NCBI GenBank assembly: GCA_025056115.1
Contig: JANWVM010000022.1
Span: forward strand, 1 to 38,380
Origin: Gloeomargarita sp. SKYG116
GTDB taxonomy: Bacteria > Cyanobacteriota > Cyanobacteriia > Gloeomargaritales > Gloeomargaritaceae
Length of the DNA stretch: 38,380 nt
Reading direction: 5' to 3'
Shown: positions 674-18,693 of the stretch, piece after piece
Layout of the letters: each line of letters begins with the position of its first letter
How positions within the stretch are numbered: the stretch's first letter is position 1
Position numbers and translations under genes: made by a program
The notes under the pieces: model-generated
Database searches by the model: none
Told to the model about the DNA's origin: nothing
Seen by the model: the letters and a program-made list of their open reading frames with translations, nothing else

Positions 674-2332
674 ATGAGTAAGAGCAGCATTGAACAGTTG
701 CGGCGGTACGACCCTGAGGTCATTGCGGCGTATTACCGGTGGCGGCTCTGGCGGGTATGGGGACGGCTGCTGCAAGTCGGTTGGGCGATGGTGCAGTTTG
801 TTGCGGCGTTGGTGTGGGACCACATCACTGGGCGGGAGGAACCCAATCGGCCCCAGCGGGCGGCCCAACTGCGGAAGTTGATTACTCGCCTGGGTCCCAC
901 CTTCATCAAAGTGGGGCAAGCCTTATCCACGCGACCGGATTTGGTGCGCCGGGACTATCTGGAAGAATTGACGTTGCTCCAGGACCAGTTGCCGTCGTTT
1001 CCCAATGCGGTGGCCTACCAGATCATCGAGAGCGAACTGGGGCGGCCTGTAGCGGATATCTATGAGGAACTCTCCCCAGAACCAGTGGCGGCAGCGAGTT
1101 TGGGACAGGTCTATCGGGGCCGCTTGCGCACGGGGGAAGAGGTGGCGGTCAAGGTGCAGCGACCGGGTTTGATTCCCATTCTCACCCTTGATCTCTACAT
1201 CCTGCGGGAATTGGCCCATTTCCTACAGCCCTGGTTGCCCATTCACATGAAGGATGACTTGCGCTCGATTGTGGATGAGTTCGGGCGTAAATTGTTTGAG
1301 GAAATTGATTATTTGCATGAGGCTTGCAACGCGGAGAAATTTGCCGATAATTTCCGGGATGACCCGACGGTGAAAGTCCCCAAAATTTACTGGGCTTACA
1401 CCAATCACCGGGTGCTGACGCTGGAGTGGATTCACGGCTATAAACTCACGGATGCCGACGTGGTGAAAAAAGTCGGGATTGAAATGCACGAATTTGTGCA
1501 AATTGGGGTGCGGGCTGGGTTGAAACAGTTGCTGGAATTTGGCTTTTTTCACGCTGATCCCCACCCAGGCAATTTGTTTCTCACCACCGACGGCAAGTTG
1601 GCCTATATTGACTTCGGCATGATGGACCAGCTGACCCAGGAAGCCAAAGAGCAATTGGCCGATGCCCTGGTGCATTTGGTCAACAAGGACTACACAGAAT
1701 TGGCCAGGGATTTTGTGCGGTTAGGTTTCTTGCCCCCCGATACGGACATTACCCCCATCGTGCCGGCCTTGGAAGCGGTTTGGCAACACGCTGTCGGGAG
1801 TCAATTGCGGGATTTTCGCTTCAAACAGGCCACCGATGAATTTTCGGATTTGATGTATCGTTATCCGTTTCGGGTGCCAGCCCATTTTGCGCTGATCATT
1901 CGTTCCCTGGTTACCCAAGAAGGAATCGCCATGAGTTTGGATCCCGATTTCCGGATTGTGGATGCGGCCTATCCCTACGTGGCGCAGCGGTTGCTTACGG
2001 GTGAAACGCCCGCGTTCCGGCGGCGACTGATGGAGGTGCTATTCAAAGATAACCGGTTCCAGTGGCAACGCTTAGAAAGTCTGCTATCGGTGGCGCAACA
2101 GGCGGGCGATTTGGATTTGCGACCAGTTCTGGGACCGGCGTTGAGTTATTTGTTTTCGGAGGAAGGCCAGTTTTTGCGCACCCAGTTAATTTTGGCCTTG
2201 ACAGAGGATGACCGGCTGCACCTGGCGGAAGTGGAACGGTTGTGGCGGTTGGTGCGGGGGCAACTGCGTCCCAAAGCCCTGTTAGAATTAGCATGGCAAC
2301 AGCGGGAGGCGTTACTGCTCAAATTTGGGTGA
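674..2332 (+). CDS. ABC1/UbiB-family atypical protein kinase-like protein
   Basis: This 552-residue protein belongs to the AarF/ABC1/UbiB family of atypical kinases, which support quinone and prenyl-lipid metabolism at membranes; plant and cyanobacterial members act around plastoquinone and tocopherol. The family signatures are all visible: the KxGQ motif (K79-Q82), the alanine-rich AAAS loop near residues 139-142 that replaces a glycine-rich loop, the VAVK lysine at 160, HADPHPGN near residues 293-300 and the metal-binding DFG starting at D313. A hydrophobic segment near residues 25-45 (VWGRLLQVGWAMVQFVAALVW) and a hydrophobic C-terminal region suggest membrane association. ATG at 674 is the first plausible start and gives the expected length. 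The protease gene starts 5 bp after the stop, so the two are probably co-transcribed. Cyanobacteria have several paralogues, so I give no symbol. Confidence 0.9.
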   Translation: MSKSSIEQLRRYDPEVIAAYYRWRLWRVWGRLLQVGWAMVQFVAALVWDHITGREEPNRPQRAAQLRKLITRLGPTFIKVGQALSTRPDLVRRDYLEELTLLQDQLPSFPNAVAYQIIESELGRPVADIYEELSPEPVAAASLGQVYRGRLRTGEEVAVKVQRPGLIPILTLDLYILRELAHFLQPWLPIHMKDDLRSIVDEFGRKLFEEIDYLHEACNAEKFADNFRDDPTVKVPKIYWAYTNHRVLTLEWIHGYKLTDADVVKKVGIEMHEFVQIGVRAGLKQLLEFGFFHADPHPGNLFLTTDGKLAYIDFGMMDQLTQEAKEQLADALVHLVNKDYTELARDFVRLGFLPPDTDITPIVPALEAVWQHAVGSQLRDFRFKQATDEFSDLMYRYPFRVPAHFALIIRSLVTQEGIAMSLDPDFRIVDAAYPYVAQRLLTGETPAFRRRLMEVLFKDNRFQWQRLESLLSVAQQAGDLDLRPVLGPALSYLFSEEGQFLRTQLILALTEDDRLHLAEVERLWRLVRGQLRPKALLELAWQQREALLLKFG

Positions 2333-2337
2333 AATCC

Positions 2338-3946
2338 ATGCACAAAGCGGCGGCGATTGGCCTGGCGCTGTGGATGCTGGGGAGCGCTGGGTTCATGTCA
2401 GGACGAGCAGCACCTACGCCGCTTGTTGCCCAAGCCCGCTTGAGTAAAAGTCAAATTGCGGATGTCGCGGAAAAAATCACCGTTTTGATTCAAACACCAG
2501 CGGGGCACGGGTCGGGGACAATTGTGGGACGCAATGGAGATGTCTATACCGTTCTCACGGCCAAACACGTGATTGAGAGCATTCAACCAGGGGAAGAAGC
2601 CGATATTACTACCCACGACGGCAAGGTGTATCCCCTGAATCGGCAAGCCATCCAACCCCTGCCCAACGTGGATTTAGCGGTGGTGCAGTTTCGCAGTTCG
2701 GTCAATTATCCCCAAGCGAAATTGGGCAATGACCTGGCCATCAAACGGGGGATGACGGTGCATGTCGCGGGTTTTCCCTTACCGGGCCAGGCCATCACGA
2801 AACCGGTCTTGCAGTTCACCAGCGGCGATGTCACGGCCACGTCTGAAAACCTTTTGAAAGACGGTTACTCGCTCACCTACACCAACAACACGCTGCCAGG
2901 GATGAGCGGGGGTCCGGTGCTGAACGAACAAGGCGAGGTGGTCGGGATTCATGGGCGCGCCGAAGGCCGCTATCAGTCCACGCAACAGGGGATGGTGGCG
3001 CTCAAATCCGGGTTTAATCTGGCGGTACCGATTCGCACCTATGTCGCCTGGGTGAATAAACAACCGATTCGCATCCAAACCACAGCCACCACAGCGCAAG
3101 AGCTTTACATTTCTGCGGAACGCAAGGCCAATGCTGGCGATATGGAAGGGGCACTGGCGGATTTGAACCAGTTGATCAAGCTGGAACCGAATTCGGCGTT
3201 GGCCTACATGAGCCGGGGGATCATCAAAGCCCTGGACCAGAAGGACTACGCTGGCGCCTTGGCCGATTACAACCAGGCCCTGAAACTCGACCCCAACAAT
3301 GCCGACATTTACGGGAACCGGGCGTTTGCCAAGGCGGGACTGCGGGATTTTACAGGAGCCATGGCCGACGCCGACCAAGCCATTCGCCTGCGACCGAATT
3401 ATGACCGGGCTTACATCGTACGGGGACTGGTGAAAAGTCAAATGAACGATTATGCCGGCGCTTTGGCTGATGCAACACGGGCGGTGGAATTGAACCCGAA
3501 CTCGGCGGATGCGTGGTTAATGCGGGCGACAGCCTACGTGTACCTGAACCAGCCCCGCCGGGTTTTGGACGATGTCAACCGCGCGCTGGCTTTGAACCCT
3601 AGGGAGTCGTCCAGCTATGCGATCCGTTCGCTGGCCCGAGCCGCGTTGCAGGATGTCAAGGGGGGCGCTCGAGGATGCACAGCAGGCGGTTCTTTTGGAC
3701 AACACCAGCGCGCTCGCGTTTACCGCCCGCAGTACGGCCCGTTTATTAATCCAGGACTACAGCGGCGCAATGGCTGATGCCGAGCGGGCGATGCAGTTGA
3801 ACCCCGCGAATCCCGACAACTACTTCATGCGCGGGGCCGCCCGAGCTGGTCTGGGAGATGCGCGGGGAGCTTGTCAGGATTGGCAAACCGCCAGTCAACT
3901 AGGGAGCGCCGAAGCCCGCCAAATGCACCGACAATTCTGCTTTTGA
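2338..3946 (+). CDS. Secreted trypsin-like serine protease with TPR repeats, frameshifted at 3660-3665
   Basis: ATG at 2338 begins a clear signal peptide (MHKAAAIGLALWMLGSAG) and sits 5 bp after the upstream stop; a longer in-frame ORF from 2242 would run inside the ABC1 gene and is rejected. A Trypsin_2-type domain follows with triad H77 (LTAKHV), D112 (NVDLAVV) and S190 (GMSGGPV). From about residue 260 come TPR units with the pattern GALADxNQAxxLxPNxA. The starting frame ends at 3777 with an unrelated tail, while the TPR pattern continues in another frame (GALEDAQQAVLLDN) to a TGA at 3944-3946. Removing one G from the six-G run at 3660-3665 joins them into a protein of about 535 residues with about seven TPRs. 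The gene is therefore either frameshifted or carries a sequencing error. Secreted protease-TPR fusions are common in cyanobacteria; substrates are generally unknown. Confidence 0.85.
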
Positions 3947-5972: not shown

Positions 5973-8900
5973 ATGACCCGTACATCCCCCCGCCCTACTC
6001 CGACCGACGTTGCTACGCCTGAACCCACCAACGGCGTTCCACTAGCGCCAACCGTTGTCCCGATGCCTACTCCTAGCAAACCGGCACGGGTGTGGGCGCA
6101 GCGAGTGGTGACCTTGGCGGCTTTGACCGGATTGGCGGGTGCGGTCGCTGGTGTAGCCACCTACAACGCGCTTTTACCATCCACATCAACGCCCCAAGTG
6201 GAGCAGAAAACCTGGGCTGGCGGTGCAGCAGCAACCGTGGGCTTGGTGCTGGGTTTGGCGGCGGCGGCCTTACTCGGGCAAGGGTTGACCCAACCAGCGT
6301 GGCTGCTGTTGCAGATGGTGCAGCGACTCCGGCGGGGGGATTGGCAGGCGCGGGTGTCTCTCCCGGATGAATGGGCGGGTGTTGGCCAGGAGTTGAATGC
6401 GCTGGCGGCCCAGTTGGAGCAGCTGACCGAGCAGCAGCAGGCGGAACGGGAACAGGCCAACCGGTTGCGGGAGTTGATCCAGCACCTGCGCCAGACCCAC
6501 GACCCCCAAGCGCTGATGGACTTGGTGGTGCGGGAAGCGCGGCAGGTGTTACGCTGTGACCGGGTGGTAGTCTATCGCTTCGACGCCGACTGGGTGGGCA
6601 CGGTGGTGGCCGAATCCGTTGGACGGGGTTGGGTCTCGGCGTTGCGGGAGAAAATTGACGACCCTTGTTTCCGGGGCGAGTACGTCACGCAGTACCAAGC
6701 CGGGCGCGTGCAGGCGGTGGCGGATATTTACCAGGCCGGTCTCCAGGATTGCCACGTGCGTATCTTGGAGCGGTTCCAGGTCAAGGCCAACCTGGTGACC
6801 CCGATTCTCGTCGAAGGGAAATTACTGGGGTTATTGATTGCCCACCAGTGCAGCGAACCCCGCGAGTGGACGGTGGGAGAGCAAGAATTTCTGGCGCAGG
6901 TGGCGTTGCAATTGGGAGTGGCGCTGGAGCAAGCGCAGTTGTGGCAAGCGCAACAGGTGCAGATGACCCAAGCCGCCCTGCTCAACCAAATGATCATAAG
7001 AATGCGGGAGTCCTTGAACCGCCAGACGATTTACAACACCACGGTGCGGGAACTGCGGCAAGCCCTGCAATCCGACCGGTGCGTGGTGTACTTGTTTGAT
7101 GAAAAGTGGCAGGGGACGATTGTCGCCGAATCCGTCGCCAATGGTTTCCCTAGGGCGTTGGGAGCGCAGATTGATGACCCCTGTTTTGCCGAAGGGTATG
7201 TAGAGAAATACCGCCAGGGACGGGTACAGGCTACGCCCGATATTTATCAAGCCCGGTTAACGCCATGCCACTTGCAACAGCTCGAACCCTTCCAGGTGAA
7301 AGCCAATTTGGTGGCGCCGATTCTAGCGGAAGGAAAACTGTTGGGGTTGCTGATTAATCACCAGTGCCGTGGCCCGCGCCAGTGGCAGCCCCACGAAATC
7401 GAACTTGCTCGCCAAGTGGCCCTACAAATGGGGTTTGCGTTAGACCAAGCCATTGCCCTCGAGCGGCAAGAGCAGTTGCGGCGGGAGCAGGAAACCAAAG
7501 CCCACCTGGCGCAATTGCTCAACGACATCACCCTACGGATTCGCCAGTCCCTCGACCAACAAGCGATTTTCCAGACCACCGTGCAGCAGATGCGCGAAGC
7601 CCTCGAAAGTGACCGCTGTGTGGTGTATCTCTTCGACGAAAACTGGAAAGGCACAATTGTGGCGGAATCCGTAGCGCCAGGATGGCCAAGAGCCTTGGGA
7701 GCGCAGATTGACGACCCTTGTTTTGCCCAGGGTTACATCGAGAAATACCAGCAAGGACGGGTACAAGCGACGCCAGATATTTACCGCGCCGGTTTGACAG
7801 AATGCCATTTACAGCAACTGGAGCCTTTTGCCGTCAAGGCCAATCTGGTCGTGCCCATTTTGCTGGGAAATAAACTCTTCGGTCTCCTGATTGCCCATCA
7901 GTGCAGTGGCCCGCGCCAGTGGCAAAGCGGCGAAATTGAGTTGATGAAACAGGTGGCGATCCAGGTAGGGTTTGCCCTCGACCAGGCCAACTTACTGGCG
8001 CAGCAAAAAGCTAAGGCCGAACAGGAGCAGTTGCTCAACCGGATCACTTCCAAAATTCGAGAGTCCCTCGAGCGCCAGACGATTTACGAAACCACGGTGT
8101 GGGAAGTCCGCCAGGCGCTCAAGTGCGACCGCTGTGTGGTGTATTTGTTTGACGAAAACTGGCAAGGGACGGTGGTGGCGGAAGCCGTCACGCCGGGGTA
8201 TCCCCCCGCCCTAGGCGCGCAAATTGCCGACCCCTGTTTTGCCAATCAGTACGTTGAGCCATACCGCGCCGGTCGGGTGAAAGCGACGCCGGATATATAC
8301 AACGCCGGTTTAACCCCTTGTCACTTGCAACAGTTAGAACCTTTCCAGGTCAAGGCCAATCTGGTCGCGCCGATTCTGCTGGGTAACAAACTCTTCGGCC
8401 TGTTGATTGCCCACCAGTGCGATGGCCCCCGCCAGTGGACAGAGTTGGAGATTGACTTGATGCGGCAGGTGGCGATTCAGGTGGGGTTTGCCCTCGACCA
8501 GGCGGTGGCGTTGGAAGAGCAAGCAGCCCTACGGCGGCAACAGGAAGCAGCGGCGGCCCAGGCGCAACGCATCAACGAAATCACCTCTAAAATTCGCCAG
8601 AGTTTACAGCGCTCGGCCATCTACAACGCCGCCGTCCAAGAAGTCCGTAAAGCCCTGCAAGCCGACCGGTGCATCGTCTATCTCTTTGACGACCAGTGGC
8701 AAGGGACGGTGGTGGCGGAAGCGGTGGCGGGTGCTTGGCCCAAAGCCCTAGGCGCCCAAATTCACGACCCCTGCTTTGCCGAAGGCTATGTGGAGAAATA
8801 CCGCCAGGGACGGGTGCAGGCCACGCCCGATATTTATCAAGCGGGGTTGACGCCCTGTCACTTGCAGCAACTGGAACCCTTTGCGGTGAAGGCCAACCTC

Positions 8901-10106
8901 GTGGCGCCCATCCTGGCGGAAGGGAAATTGCTAGGGTTGCTGATTGCCCACCAGTGCAGTGGCCCGCGCCAGTGGAATGAACTGGACATTGACCTGATCC
9001 GGCAGGTGGCGATGCAAGTGGGGTTTGCCCTGGACCAGGCCATCTTGCTGGAACAGGTGGAACAGGCGCGGCAGCAGGCCGAAGTGGTCTCAGAAGAACA
9101 ACGCCGGCAACGGGAAGCCCTTCAGGGACAACTAGCTCAATTCCTGGCGGACATCGAAGGCGCGTTCCAAGGCGATTTGACGGTACGGGCGCGGGTGACC
9201 TCTGGCGAAATGGGAACGGTGGCTGACTTTTTCAACGCCATCATCGAGAGCCTGCAACAACTGGTGCAGCAAGTGCAGGTGGCGGCCCAGGCGGTGGCAG
9301 ATACCGCCCAACGCAGTGCTCCCCCGGTGAATGCCCTCTCATCGGAAGCGGCGCGGCAGGCGGAAGCTATCCAGGGCGCCTTGGCCCAAATTCAACAGAT
9401 GGTGCAATCCATCCAGCAGGTGGCGGCCAATGCCCACAGCGCCGAATTGCAGGTGCAGCGGGCCAACGAAACCGTGCAGGCAGGGGACGAAGCCATGAAC
9501 CGTACAGTGGCAGGAATTTCGGCGATTCGGGAGACGGTAGCAGCGACAGCGAAGAAAGTCAAACGTCTCGGCGAAGCCTCCCAGAAAATCTCGCGGGTGG
9601 TCAACCTGATCAGCAACTTTGCCGCCCAGACCAACCTGCTAGCGTTGAATGCGGCCATCGAGGCAGCGCGAGCCGGTGAAGAAGGGCGGGGGTTTGCGGT
9701 GGTCGCTGAAGAAGTCCGTTCGCTGGCCCAGCAGTCAGCCAATGCCACCCATGAAATCGAGCAACTGGTGGAGGAAATCCAGGCGGAAACCAACGAGGTG
9801 GTAGCAGCGATGGAGGCGGGAACCGAGCAGGTGGTTGCCGGAACCCAGTTAGTGGCTGAGGCGCGGCAAAAGTTGAGCCAAATTGTTGCCGCAACGGCCC
9901 AAATCAGCACTTTGGTGGCTGAAATTGCCCAGGCTGCCCAAGCCCAGTCGGAAACCTCAGCGGTGGTCAGTCGCACGATGCAGGACGTGGCCCAAATTGC
10001 CAACGACACCTCGCAGCAATCCGTCGCTGTGGCCGATTCCTTTACCCATTTGCTGGGGGTGGCGGCGGAACTCCAGAAAAACGTGGCCCAGTTCAAGGTG
10101 AGCTAG
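5973..10106 (+). CDS. Methyl-accepting chemotaxis/phototaxis receptor with five tandem DXCF cyanobacteriochrome GAF domains (PixJ-like)
   Basis: This 1377-residue receptor starts with a Pro/Thr-rich cytoplasmic tail, then two membrane helices (about 44-67 and 82-103) separated by only about 14 residues, so there is no periplasmic sensor. A HAMP-like segment (about 104-155), five GAF domains (about 180-1025), a second HAMP-like region (about 1050-1105) and an MCP signalling domain follow; the hairpin tip [20 protein letters not shown] lies near residue 1220. Each GAF has a DPCF motif and a Cys-His motif, the two bilin-ligand positions of DXCF cyanobacteriochromes: C232/C260, C404/C432, C583/C611, C755/C783 and C934/C962, always 28 apart. 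Known relatives include Synechocystis PixJ1 and Thermosynechococcus PixJ, which govern phototaxis through CheA/CheW. I infer a multi-chromophore light receptor. No che/pix genes lie nearby. cdsA follows at once and its ribosome-binding site is inside this gene. Confidence 0.9.
6510..9050 (+). repeat. Five in-frame tandem GAF-coding repeats of about 516/537 bp
   Basis: The five GAF units repeat at DNA and protein level. The distances between successive DPCF cysteines are 172, 179, 172 and 179 residues, so the unit alternates between 516 and 537 bp and the higher-order period is 351 residues (1053 bp). The extra seven residues sit in the helical linkers after GAF2 and GAF4. Unit 2 (around 7190-7350) and unit 5 (around 8780-8945) are close at the nucleotide level, with shared runs such as acgcccgatatttatcaagc, while units 3 and 4 share the segment [15 protein letters not shown]. 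This mosaic pattern suggests internal duplication followed by gene conversion. Confidence 0.85.
10095..10102 (+). promoter_or_regulatory. Shine-Dalgarno of cdsA embedded in the end of the receptor gene
   Basis: AAGGTGAG lies 5 nt before the TTG at 10108 and overlaps the last codons of the receptor gene. With a gap of one base between stop and start, this supports the TTG start and translational coupling of cdsA to the receptor. Confidence 0.55.
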
Positions 10107-10986: not shown

Positions 10987-11617
10987 GTAGTTGACCGGAT
11001 AAATGGATTGCGCCCGTTGCCATCGTTAACGTCTGGATTTGCACATCAGAGCCTAGGGATATGGAGATGGGTTGGGTGCGGGCGGCCAAGGGCGTCAATC
11101 GTATTTCATCGGGAGCAATAACCTCGACCTGAGTGATATATTGCCTGCCGTCCTGCATCAACCAGTAGAGATTTGGGTTTTGAATCTGGAGTTGCTGGAC
11201 TGTTCCTATTTGACCCGTCAATGCCTGTAGATAAGGTTGCAAGAACGTCTGAAGATAGGGCAAAGATTGATTGAGATTTTGTTCCGTGATAACCGCCTGA
11301 ATTTCTACCGTGATTGGCTCGACAAAAGGGTCTTCTTGTTTACGGAAAAACGGCCAGTGAAATTGGATACGTTCAGCGCGGATATTGACCTGATGCAAAT
11401 GGATATCCCGATAAATGACGTTGCGGGCGTTCACCTGCACCAAAGGCAGATAACCGGCTGACCAAACCGGCGCGAGGTCGCCCAGTACTACCTCCAGGTT
11501 CTCCACTTGGGTCACTTGTTGTTGAATCCACCAGCGCAACAGGGCAGCCAATGGACGTGCTAACCCTCGATTAGCGAGCAAAGGCACCGACTCCGTAAAC
11601 ACAATTGCGAGCGGCAC
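10928..11617 (-). CDS. DUF2993 (LmeA-like) family protein
   Basis: The protein of up to 229 residues matches the cyanobacterial DUF2993 pattern: a short N-terminal helix (LAALLRWWIQQQVTQVENLEV), a segment like SAGYLPLVQVNARNVIYRDI, alternating beta strands, and the ending LSGQLLI. Mycobacterial LmeA, in the same family, binds phospholipid in the cell envelope, so a lipid- or envelope-related role is plausible but not shown here. The N-terminus is uncertain: GTG at 11617 overlaps the upstream gene by 47 bp, and an in-frame GTG at 11587 overlaps by 17 bp and has a closely spaced GGAG. Either way it is the second gene of a two-gene unit with the secreted protein upstream. Its 3' end runs 59 bp into cdsA on the other strand. 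Confidence 0.7.
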   Translation of the reverse strand: MPLAIVFTESVPLLANRGLARPLAALLRWWIQQQVTQVENLEVVLGDLAPVWSAGYLPLVQVNARNVIYRDIHLHQVNIRAERIQFHWPFFRKQEDPFVEPITVEIQAVITEQNLNQSLPYLQTFLQPYLQALTGQIGTVQQLQIQNPNLYWLMQDGRQYITQVEVIAPDEIRLTPLAARTQPISISLGSDVQIQTLTMATGAIHLSGQLLIRPAGAPAGSQSNRPGEQ

Positions 11618-12029
11618 AGTGGCTCATTATTGCTTGGATGCGAAAGGTCGCCGTGCGTCGAGGGATAACCGTGACGATGGGTATATCATCTAGGGCTACA
11701 TCTTCATCAATGAGATAGCCATTTTCGTCATAGAGCCGTAAATCCATATCACGACAGTCCTGGTCGCAAACGGCAACAATCACGTACTCGATGCCTGCCC
11801 TCAGCGTAATTTGAATCAAATCAAATTCGCCAGCACTGAGCAGGCCGGTGAGGGGTTCATGGGATAACTGATAGCCATCACGCCCGACAGCTCTAGCGGC
11901 TGACCGCAATTGCTCTCGCACACTTTGCAGAAACGGATTAGGCTGCGCCTGGACAGGTTCTATACTGCAATATCCAAAGACCAAACTAACTAGGCAAAGC
12001 CATCTTGCTAATACTCGATTACTTTGCAT
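11571..12029 (-). CDS. Small secreted protein with paired cysteines, function unknown
   Basis: This 152-residue protein has a classical signal peptide (hydrophobic LARWLCLVSLVFGYCS, cleavage probably after VQAQ at about residue 29). The mature part has an amphipathic helix (FLQSVREQLRSAARAVG), then a beta-rich domain with LRAGIEYVIVAVCDQDCRDM, LRLYDENGYLIDED and VTVIPRRTATFRIQ. Two close cysteine pairs, CDQDC and CAARNC, could form disulphides in the periplasm or outside the cell. The strand pattern and acidic turns resemble pre-peptidase C-terminal (PPC) beta-sandwich domains, but I do not recognise the family with certainty. ATG at 12029 is supported by the signal peptide and by a good promoter 25 bp upstream. 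The DUF2993 gene overlaps its 3' end. Confidence 0.75.
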   Translation of the reverse strand: MQSNRVLARWLCLVSLVFGYCSIEPVQAQPNPFLQSVREQLRSAARAVGRDGYQLSHEPLTGLLSAGEFDLIQITLRAGIEYVIVAVCDQDCRDMDLRLYDENGYLIDEDVALDDIPIVTVIPRRTATFRIQAIMSHCAARNCVYGVGAFAR

Positions 12030-15101: not shown

Positions 15102-16577
15102 ATGTCCTCATTTTGGCGCAATTTTTTAATAGCGTTTGGCTGTAGCGTACTACTAACAGCAGCGCTGATTTTCTTCGATAGTCAAAATTTACTAAGTTCA
15201 GAGTTTCACTTGATTGGTGCTAAGGGAATGGTTGCTGCCCATGGGCCTGGTCCTCGTTTGAGTGGGATTGGCTTTGTCTTTCCCCCCCTCCTAATTTATC
15301 TCACCATGTTAGTTGGCTCCCCAATTACCACTCAAGTCCTGACAGCAACTGGTCTTATTTTTTTCATGACCTGGTTGGTTGGTCAATTGCCCTGTCGGCC
15401 ATTGTGGCGTGGTGTCATCTTAGTCTTGTTGTTGACTAACCCAGCATTTCTGATCATGCTCCTGACCAGTCCCAGTTGGACGGCTGCCAGTCTATTTCTG
15501 GGATTAGCTCTTCTGTTAGGATGGCACTTGGTTCAGCCTCGCGACTTGCAGTATCCCCTTAGCGCCAATTTGATTTTGCTAGGGCTAGTACTGACACCCC
15601 TCATGTTGTTGCGCTACGAGTTTTGGTGGCTGCTGCCCATCTTTATGCTCCTTAGTTGGTATATCCTCAAAGAACCCGATTTCCAGCTTAGGTTAACCGT
15701 TGTTCTTGTTACTAATTTTATGCCGGTGATTGCTATTCTAGGATTCATGTATGTGAATTGGTTAATTGCAAGAGATGGATTTTATTTCCTCACAGCGCCG
15801 GGGAATGGTTTACGGTGGCCAGGAATGGAACGTTGGCTAGAATTTACGCCAGGCATTGATGCCATAGTGCAGAGCGTCATCTGGTTAGGGCAAACATTAC
15901 CCGTCTACTACCTTGTAGCTATCTTAGTTCTCTGGCAAAGTCGTAGTGGTTGGGTAGCTCGTTTCCTGCTGCTAATTCTACCGTTACTCATCGTAACTGT
16001 GATGTTGTGGCAGGGCAATTATTTCCCTCAGATGGGTATCATTGGTGCATTTTCCATCTTAGTTCCCATTTTGCTTCTACAGCTTGGGGAATGCAGAACT
16101 CAGCATTTATTACCAATCATCCTAGTTTGGGTGGTTTCCATCTACCTAGTGGTGAATGGGCTGCAGACACAGCGGTTGATACCGGAAGAGGAGTTAGTGT
16201 GGCGACAGATGACGGGACAGCCTATCACTGATGTTCTATCTGCTCGCTGGCGGCGGCGACAGATTGCGCAACAAGAAATTGCTCAGGAATTATTCCAACG
16301 ACTACGTCCTGAACAAAAAGTTCTGCTCGATGACTCAGTCAATTTTAGTATTGTTTACCTATTGCCAAGTCCTAATGCTTTTGTTTTACCCCATCAGTAT
16401 GAATTTGGATTAGCGCTCACCCAACCTGAAGAAGTTGTGGATTACATCTTAGTACAGCGGCAGACTGGTGTGGAGCCACTGACTGACAGAATTGCCAGGG
16501 GAATGTTTTCTCAAGAACGAAGGTTATTTACCCCAGTTGCAAGCAACGAATTTTACTCCCTTTTCCAGCGGCAGTAA
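15102..16577 (+). CDS. Polytopic membrane protein, GT-C glycosyltransferase-like, function unknown
   Basis: The 491-residue protein has an N-terminal membrane helix, a first outside loop containing AHGPGPRLSGIGFVFPPLLIYL, about ten further hydrophobic helices, and a soluble C-terminal domain of about 120 residues rich in Arg and Gln (from about residue 370). This layout (long first loop, many helices, soluble tail) resembles GT-C lipid-dependent glycosyltransferases such as the PMT/ArnT clan, but I do not see a confident DxD/ExD catalytic motif in the first loop, so the function is open. It starts 66 bp after nblS on the same strand and may share its transcript. It ends 8 bp from the convergent GH5-like gene. 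A role in envelope or extracellular polysaccharide is an inference from the neighbours. Confidence 0.6.
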   Translation: MSSFWRNFLIAFGCSVLLTAALIFFDSQNLLSSEFHLIGAKGMVAAHGPGPRLSGIGFVFPPLLIYLTMLVGSPITTQVLTATGLIFFMTWLVGQLPCRPLWRGVILVLLLTNPAFLIMLLTSPSWTAASLFLGLALLLGWHLVQPRDLQYPLSANLILLGLVLTPLMLLRYEFWWLLPIFMLLSWYILKEPDFQLRLTVVLVTNFMPVIAILGFMYVNWLIARDGFYFLTAPGNGLRWPGMERWLEFTPGIDAIVQSVIWLGQTLPVYYLVAILVLWQSRSGWVARFLLLILPLLIVTVMLWQGNYFPQMGIIGAFSILVPILLLQLGECRTQHLLPIILVWVVSIYLVVNGLQTQRLIPEEELVWRQMTGQPITDVLSARWRRRQIAQQEIAQELFQRLRPEQKVLLDDSVNFSIVYLLPSPNAFVLPHQYEFGLALTQPEEVVDYILVQRQTGVEPLTDRIARGMFSQERRLFTPVASNEFYSLFQRQ

Positions 16578-16585
16578 ACCAGTAG

Positions 16586-17926
16586 TCATCTGGGAAATAT
16601 GGCTTGCATTTGTTCAATGGTCATACCATAGAACTCGTCCTGATGTTGCACGCCATTCAGTAACCAAAGGAAAACCCCCTTAGCGCCTAAAGAAAAAGCC
16701 AATTCTGCCCAATGCCGATACAAAGACGTTCGTTCTCGTTGCAATTCTTGACTGGATAGTGGACGTTTATCTGCTAGACTGCGAGGGCGACACCAACCTA
16801 ACTCTCCCAGATACCAAGGTTTTTTATTCATGACCGCTGCCCGAGAACGCAACCATTCATCGCCCAACTGCCGGTAGTTACCAATTGTCTGCTGGCGGTC
16901 GGGACGCAGTAAAAAATCCCAGCCTCGGCGGTCTATAAAAGGTAGTCCGGCTACTGTCTTTTTCTGGAGTTCTACAGATGGATGCGTGTACATGTGAATA
17001 GAACCCATCGTTAATGCTGGGCGGGTCATATTCAATGCCAGGTCAATACCTTCATAAAATTGAGGTTCTGGGCGCAAGTAACGGGGAGAAAACGGCAGTG
17101 GTTGATTTAGCCATCCTTCTTCCCCAGAAGTTACCCAAATACGACGAGGTATTTGGCTTTGCACAAAAACTGCCTGTCGTTGTAGCCAACTAGCGACGAT
17201 ATCCTGGATTAATAGATTAGGTTTTACAGGCTGGTTGTTTTGGGCGTATATGCTTTTGCCACGGGGTTCATTGAGAATGTCAATTATAACTACATTTGGA
17301 TATTGAGCTAGTATGCACAATACCTGCCGGGTGTGTTGCTGAAATAGTTGCTCTACCTGTGAATTGAGATAGAAATCAGCACCGTATTGTAAGTATTTGT
17401 CCTGGTCTTTAAGGGTTAAAAAGGCAGTGAGCCAAGTGCCAGACGGAATGACTCCAACCCATTCCAAATAACGTAAGATTCCCCCATAGGATAACCAGTA
17501 GTTACCCAAGACAGGAACCAGAAAAAAATCTAGTTCACCAAGACATCTAACCATGGTATCCAGAAGGTGAAAAACAAATTCAACTGGTTGATTTGGCGCT
17601 TGCCACATGGCACCGTCAAAAACGCCGCTGGGTACATCAGGAGCAGAAACTGGGTAGTCATTAAATGCCCAAAACCGCAAGGCATTGATGCGACTGTAAC
17701 GACGGAGAGCATCTAGCCTTAAGTCCTGCACGAGATAGTCCATAACCACCTCTTTGAGGGGGCGCTCTGGTTGTTGCTTGGCTCGGCGATAACTTTCTAC
17801 CAGTAGATAGTAGGCGTTGATGCCATACAGGGGGGGAATTCGAGCGGCTAATGGAGATGACGAAGTAGTTGTTGACAAGAGAGAGAGAGTCCCTAACAAA
17901 ACAGTTCGCCGGGAAAGGGATGCCAT
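16586..17926 (-). CDS. Exported GH5-like glycoside hydrolase (mannanase/cellulase clan)
   Basis: ATG at 17926 overlaps the upstream TAA by one base (TAATG) and begins MASLSRRTVLLGTLSLL, an export signal with paired arginines that could suit Tat or Sec; the 13-codon upstream extension is rejected. The roughly 446-residue protein looks like a clan GH-A (alpha/beta)8 barrel: GINAYYLL at strand 1, LRFWAFNDYP, VVIIDILNEPRG with probable acid/base E220, SIHMYTHP, and WYLGELGW with probable nucleophile E375. The substrate would be a beta-linked polysaccharide such as mannan or glucan, either outside the cell or in the cell's own matrix. Translational coupling to an outer-membrane barrel gene suggests a role in release or trimming of exported polysaccharide. 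Family membership is inferred from motifs only. Confidence 0.75.
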   Translation of the reverse strand: MASLSRRTVLLGTLSLLSTTTSSSPLAARIPPLYGINAYYLLVESYRRAKQQPERPLKEVVMDYLVQDLRLDALRRYSRINALRFWAFNDYPVSAPDVPSGVFDGAMWQAPNQPVEFVFHLLDTMVRCLGELDFFLVPVLGNYWLSYGGILRYLEWVGVIPSGTWLTAFLTLKDQDKYLQYGADFYLNSQVEQLFQQHTRQVLCILAQYPNVVIIDILNEPRGKSIYAQNNQPVKPNLLIQDIVASWLQRQAVFVQSQIPRRIWVTSGEEGWLNQPLPFSPRYLRPEPQFYEGIDLALNMTRPALTMGSIHMYTHPSVELQKKTVAGLPFIDRRGWDFLLRPDRQQTIGNYRQLGDEWLRSRAAVMNKKPWYLGELGWCRPRSLADKRPLSSQELQRERTSLYRHWAELAFSLGAKGVFLWLLNGVQHQDEFYGMTIEQMQAIFPR

Positions 17927-18693
17927 TATCTGCCGGTGGCAATTGCCCCGCCAAAGGTAAACCACAAACCTAGCTCAAAGCCGTAACCTGGTCCATCAAT
18001 TTGTTTGTAAGCTGCTGGAACAATGCGGATAAAGTCATTGGCCTTGATGCGAAATTGACCAACAACTTTCGTAAAATCTGCTTCCCGGTCTTGCGTGCCA
18101 ATAATACTGTCAATTTGAGCAGCAACATCGAGACGATCAGTGACTGGAATGGCAATTTCACCAAAGGCGCGGAACTCATCGGAACGTTTGCTGAAATAAG
18201 GGCGATAACCCACTTCAACCGTCCAGTAACCAAACCGACGACCTACAGCAAAGGAACGACTGACCGGCACCCGTACATCCAAACCCACACCTCCCCGTGA
18301 CAAGGGCAAGGGCGCGTTAGGGTCATAACCCAAAGGAATAATGGGTGTCACCTGCAGAGCGGCTGCCCAGCGAGGGTCCCGCGTAAAGCGCCAGCGCACA
18401 CCAACTTCCGCATCAAAAAAACCACTATTAGTGCGAGCCGGATTGAACTGGTCATCCCGAATCCACTGGTAAGGCACTTTGAAGATTAGGGTGATGTTCT
18501 CTTTCAATCCGTATTCGGCATAGGCTTCTACTTCTAGCTTTTCAAACGTACGACTTTCGAGCGTCCGAAAAGTAGTACTGACAAAAGCACCACCTTCTGG
18601 TTGTGTGAAGCCCCCTGCCCAGCTACGACTAGCGCCAATAGCATTCAACAAAAGACCGACCCCGACTATCCCCCAAATATGTATCTTCCCCAT
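17926..18693 (-). CDS. Outer-membrane beta-barrel-like protein
   Basis: The 255-residue protein has a signal peptide (MGKIHIWGIVGVGLLLNAIGASRSWA, cleavage near residue 26) followed by alternating aromatic/charged strands typical of outer-membrane barrels: GAFVSTTFRTLESRTF, KLEVEAYAEYGLKENITLIFKVPYQ, VGVRWRFTRD, WAAALQVTPIIPLGY, WTVEVGYRPYF, and a final strand FELGLWFTF. It resembles the transporter-like barrels annotated as MetA-pathway-of-phenol-degradation or similar proteins, though no substrate can be named. ATG at 18693 is preceded at 8 nt by GGAGGT (18707-18702). It is the first gene of a two-gene unit with the GH5-like enzyme, whose ATG overlaps this stop codon. Confidence 0.7.
   Translation of the reverse strand: MGKIHIWGIVGVGLLLNAIGASRSWAGGFTQPEGGAFVSTTFRTLESRTFEKLEVEAYAEYGLKENITLIFKVPYQWIRDDQFNPARTNSGFFDAEVGVRWRFTRDPRWAAALQVTPIIPLGYDPNAPLPLSRGGVGLDVRVPVSRSFAVGRRFGYWTVEVGYRPYFSKRSDEFRAFGEIAIPVTDRLDVAAQIDSIIGTQDREADFTKVVGQFRIKANDFIRIVPAAYKQIDGPGYGFELGLWFTFGGAIATGR

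Follow-up and report, generated by a model that had tools for sequence, protein, structure and literature searches.

PixJ of S. elongatus (PixJSe; Synpcc7942_0858, strain UTEX 3055) was reportedly described by Yang et al. in 2018 as a blue/green-responsive receptor with five GAFs, an account which agrees with the five DXCF GAFs found in G037, the genome we take to be that of S. elongatus. The protein combines five DXCF/CH GAFs in tandem with an MCP, acts in phototaxis, and is encoded in a six-gene pix operon (see PMC12652804); it is about 50% identical to the receptor described below. TePixJ of Thermosynechococcus elongatus BP-1, also encoded in a pix operon, has one bilin GAF of the DXCF type; its two thioether cysteines are C494 and C522, and in the crystal the bilin has D492, Q526, H523, N535, H498 and W499 as neighbours (PMC6955287). 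PixJ1 (TaxD1) of Synechocystis is a blue/green receptor in which only the second of two GAFs binds a bilin, and PtxD (NpF2164) of Nostoc punctiforme, which acts in phototaxis, carries seven GAFs, at least six of them bilin-bound, covering six colours (PMC5812497). PixJ proteins have been described with one to five GAFs in series (PMC13383048). According to Harwood 2021, as cited in PMC9090330, the phototaxis role of the PixJ homologue of N. punctiforme is disputed.

A gene of this type resides in Gloeomargarita sp. SKYG116, in a stretch of 38,380 nucleotides analyzed as a whole (the window). The open reading frame (5973-10106, plus strand, as are the receptor parts and the cdsA-like gene below) is intact, starts with ATG, and encodes 1377 aa arranged as TM-TM-(HAMP-like)-5xGAF-(HAMP-like)-MCP, the HAMP-like stretches being inferred with no Pfam call. 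The MCP domain and each of the five GAFs exceed the Pfam cut-offs, and the combination of five GAFs and an MCP output in one chain, read earlier from the letters, is thus confirmed. GAF1 spans 6456-6947, GAF2 6972-7463, GAF3 7509-8000, GAF4 8025-8516 and GAF5 8562-9053; the MCP signalling domain (aa 1162-1342, PF00015, E 5e-44) spans 9456-9998. The preliminary description denied the protein a periplasmic sensor, and hydropathy bears this out, as two transmembrane segments (aa about 43-65 and 80-107; 6099-6293) are separated by just a short loop. At the sequence level the receptor is a membrane-anchored MCP with GAFs of the DXCF type. It shares the two transmembrane segments, GAFs and MCP with PixJ1, but has five DXCF GAFs in place of two GAFs, and is a multi-GAF MCP like PtxD.

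Both the DPCF and the Cys-His motif are present in 5/5 GAFs, and the cysteines are invariably 28 residues apart (232/260, 404/432, 583/611, 755/783, 934/962), as are C494 and C522 in TePixJ. The assignment of the units to the TePixJ-like, two-cysteine DXCF type is upheld, the TePixJ GAF structures being the best matches in both sequence and structure and the best solved relatives (E 1e-52); fold and pocket are likewise of the TePixJ kind. Pocket positions were read from an alignment numbered by TePixJ. D492, C494, F495, R507, C522, H523 and N535 are kept without exception in 35/35 GAFs from seven congeneric genomes. The W499 position is occupied by Tyr in 5/5 GAFs, as in many other DXCF GAFs, and the residue at H498 varies and is not kept among the five. 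The one notable loss is at Q526, replaced by Ile in GAF1 alone. Had most units lost other pocket residues, this would have spoken against bilin binding; the pattern observed favours it. Bilin competence of GAF2-5 is well supported by these alignments, and that of GAF1 is likely, given the same residues and a predicted AlphaFold model (pLDDT 92) which superposes on TePixJ (4fof and 4glq) with an rmsd of about 1.0-1.1 A.

GAF1, the most divergent unit, stands apart from its partners in several respects. It forms a deep clade of its own in the GAF tree (100/100) and shows 48-52% identity to the other units, while GAF2-5 share about 65-71% mutual identity; it has 108 invariant columns vs. 120-133 for the other units. 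The upstream GAF of many filamentous PixJ-like proteins has degenerated (DPCI, canonical Cys lost, or DPCF lost), and only the last one or two GAFs keep both cysteines; GAF1, the equivalent here of that upstream unit, keeps both. Along with Ile at Q526, these features would fit a receptor in which only GAF2-5 are photoactive, and GAF1 is a structural or relay GAF that retains its cysteines, yet has weak bilin binding or a different colour. Such an arrangement is rather improbable, as the seven residues listed above are kept by GAF1 in 7/7 species and its predicted model superposes on TePixJ.

The five-GAF gene was found in 6/6 other congeners examined (83-99% identity), and also in the sister genus, where it is interrupted by a contig end. 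Across the 35 GAFs of the seven congeneric genomes 54/164 columns are invariant, all cysteine pairs and their spacing included. For each GAF dN is far below dS, the latter often saturated, and every GAF is under purifying selection. Chance or degenerate GAFs are ruled out by the conservation in seven species, the low dN and the pocket residues, as a very recent tandem duplication or an assembly artefact is ruled out by the DNA identity of the repeat cores, only 60-77%, and by clades specific for position across species. GAF2, GAF3 and GAF4 each form such a clade throughout the genus, GAF5 a less clean one, while the copies of the sister genus group among themselves. Because GAF2-4 behave in this way, the five-GAF array predates the genus.

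GAF2-5 form one clade (98/91), located within the DXCF clade which hosts TePixJ, S. elongatus PixJ and the C-terminal GAFs of filamentous PixJ-like proteins (fork 88/91). The GAF repeats of the S. elongatus group cluster with TePixJ (100/94), apart from GAF2-5 of the genus, which indicates independent amplification. By the tree, the array was probably amplified independently of S. elongatus; a single shared expansion is disfavoured by the tree constraint without being rejected (AU p = 0.07). If the amplifications were independent, one unit would have given rise to four beside the older GAF1 in this genus, and a single unit to five or six in the S. elongatus group. When 390 genomes of the class were surveyed, with a strict cut-off such that further arrays of this kind may exist, this genus and the S. 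elongatus group were the only ones, among the matches listed, to show at least five close matches per open frame. In the other genomes with many matches among those listed, the matches are spread over several ORFs, with up to four per ORF.

The distance between equivalent cysteines of successive GAFs is 172, 179, 172 and 179 residues, a pattern fixed in seven species of the genus. The sister genus features 179 three times, whereas PixJSe (G037), as well as G018, features 172 throughout, as do most of the filamentous PixJ-like proteins. Nearly every DXCF array seen has spacings of 172 or 179, values which differ by one heptad; linker lengths restricted to heptads are known for other photoreceptors (PMC9587094). 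In a predicted two-GAF model, a single helix of 52 residues (7389-7544), the linker of a 179-residue spacing, joins GAF2 to GAF3. The spacings and this model suggest that signals may be relayed by a parallel coiled-coil spine. That same-colour blue/green arrays were amplified independently in two lineages, and held by selection in a fixed heptad register, is a tentative proposal.

The gene is an orphan. It is flanked by an ABC1 kinase gene, a protease-TPR gene, ftsH, a cdsA-like CTP transferase gene (PF01148; 10108-10986) located directly downstream, a HAMP-PAS histidine kinase gene and housekeeping genes, and no che genes were found among the scanned proteins of the window. The pixJ-cdsA-histidine kinase order is kept in two congeners. 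This differs from the pixGHIJL-like che operons, usual though not essential for such genes, and found in G036 and G037, where pixJ is part of a response regulator-CheY-CheW-PixJ-CheA operon (gene names assigned from size, position and similarity). G036, which carries the 3vv4 TePixJ stretch unchanged, is T. elongatus BP-1. The trypsin-like protease-TPR ORF (2242-3777) seems continued in another frame (3617-3946), a possible frameshift or assembly error, and the gene is absent at the corresponding place in one congener. Farther downstream (15102-18693) three ORFs of 491, 459 and 255 aa have no Pfam match; the first has conserved counterparts in congeners (55-58%).

The genome encodes three CheA, several CheW, three clear MCPs, PilB/PilT-like ATPases, and heme oxygenase and PcyA. 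Similarity to PixL gives two candidates for the CheA partner, at 37-38%. A two-BMC-domain shell-type ORF (contig 203, about 11156-11965) directly adjoins a CheY-CheW-MCP-CheA cluster. Contig 11 (50500-55500) encodes another DXCF photosensor of about 1065 aa, a PAS-GAF(DPCF and CH, 28 apart)-PAS-PAS-GGDEF-EAL protein by visual assignment of domains, which is probably a light-controlled c-di-GMP enzyme. Photoreceptors of similar general kind switch the direction of phototaxis in Thermosynechococcus through c-di-GMP (PMC9090330). Both this protein and the location of the pixJ-type gene outside any che cluster in the genus may hint at a different Che-linked output, such as biofilm formation, c-di-GMP balance or pilus number, rather than phototaxis. 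This is unlikely, in view of the MCP output, of the CheA, CheW and pilus motors available, and of the phototaxis role of the characterised relatives PixJ1, PixJSe and PtxD.

The locus is best explained, with a probability of about 0.82, as encoding a PixJ-type phototaxis receptor in which each GAF is most likely bilin-binding and switches between blue and green, the signal passing along a helical spine to the MCP and on to type IV pili. Binding and switching are most likely for all five units, or at least for GAF2-5. In each, PCB would be linked to the Cys-His cysteine and converted by isomerisation to PVB; the DPCF cysteine would add reversibly to C10 of the bilin, so that the GAF would photoswitch between a blue- and a green-absorbing form as in TePixJ. 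A membrane-anchored dimer would display ten bilin sites along a continuous helical spine; changes driven by light in the GAFs would travel through the spine to the MCP hairpin, and may alter the activity of a CheA partner and, in turn, the type IV pilus motors. Counted against the PixJ reading are Tyr at W499, Ile at Q526 in GAF1, the failure to keep H498, the separate clade of GAF1, and the distance of the gene from any che gene in this genus.

The array would represent one colour sensor repeated, not many colours combined. The preliminary description proposed a high-capacity antenna or a multi-state colour integrator; the former may hold, the latter is not supported, since identity among GAF2-5 is about 65-71% and the units are all of a single DXCF class, pointing to repeats of one colour pair and not to several colours. 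A PtxD-like integrator with five clearly different absorption pairs, read in combination by the MCP, is most improbable: arrays of this sort do exist, as PtxD with its six colours, spectrally mixed and furnished with insert-Cys units, and positions 482, 498 and 526 (TePixJ numbering) differ between the five GAFs, but here the DXCF class is repeated alone, with neither insert-Cys nor WXDXXL red/green units, and GAF2-5 form one clade, unlike the lineage-mixing arrays L015, L044 and L046.

The layout is not new. The novelty implied earlier, from a comparison made just with the two-GAF PixJ1, does not stand, because S. elongatus PixJ has the same five-DXCF plan, and PtxD seven GAFs. What is apparently unreported is an array that is fixed in a genus, lies away from the pix operon, and probably arose by an amplification separate from that in S. 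elongatus; no phototaxis literature on Gloeomargarita was found. With Gloeomargarita, the uniform five-GAF PixJ would be represented in two lineages; its assembly here was probably independent, and it occurs in a small genome in which only one other DXCF photosensor was detected. Because the units are of one class, gain or cooperativity is a more natural hypothesis for this array than colour integration. If independent amplification in the two lineages and retention by selection in heptad register are true, copy number itself would be functional, for instance in a cooperative or graded reading of light along one helical spine. The genus would be a good system for asking why one colour sensor is repeated five times, whether for sensitivity, cooperativity, or bidirectional control.
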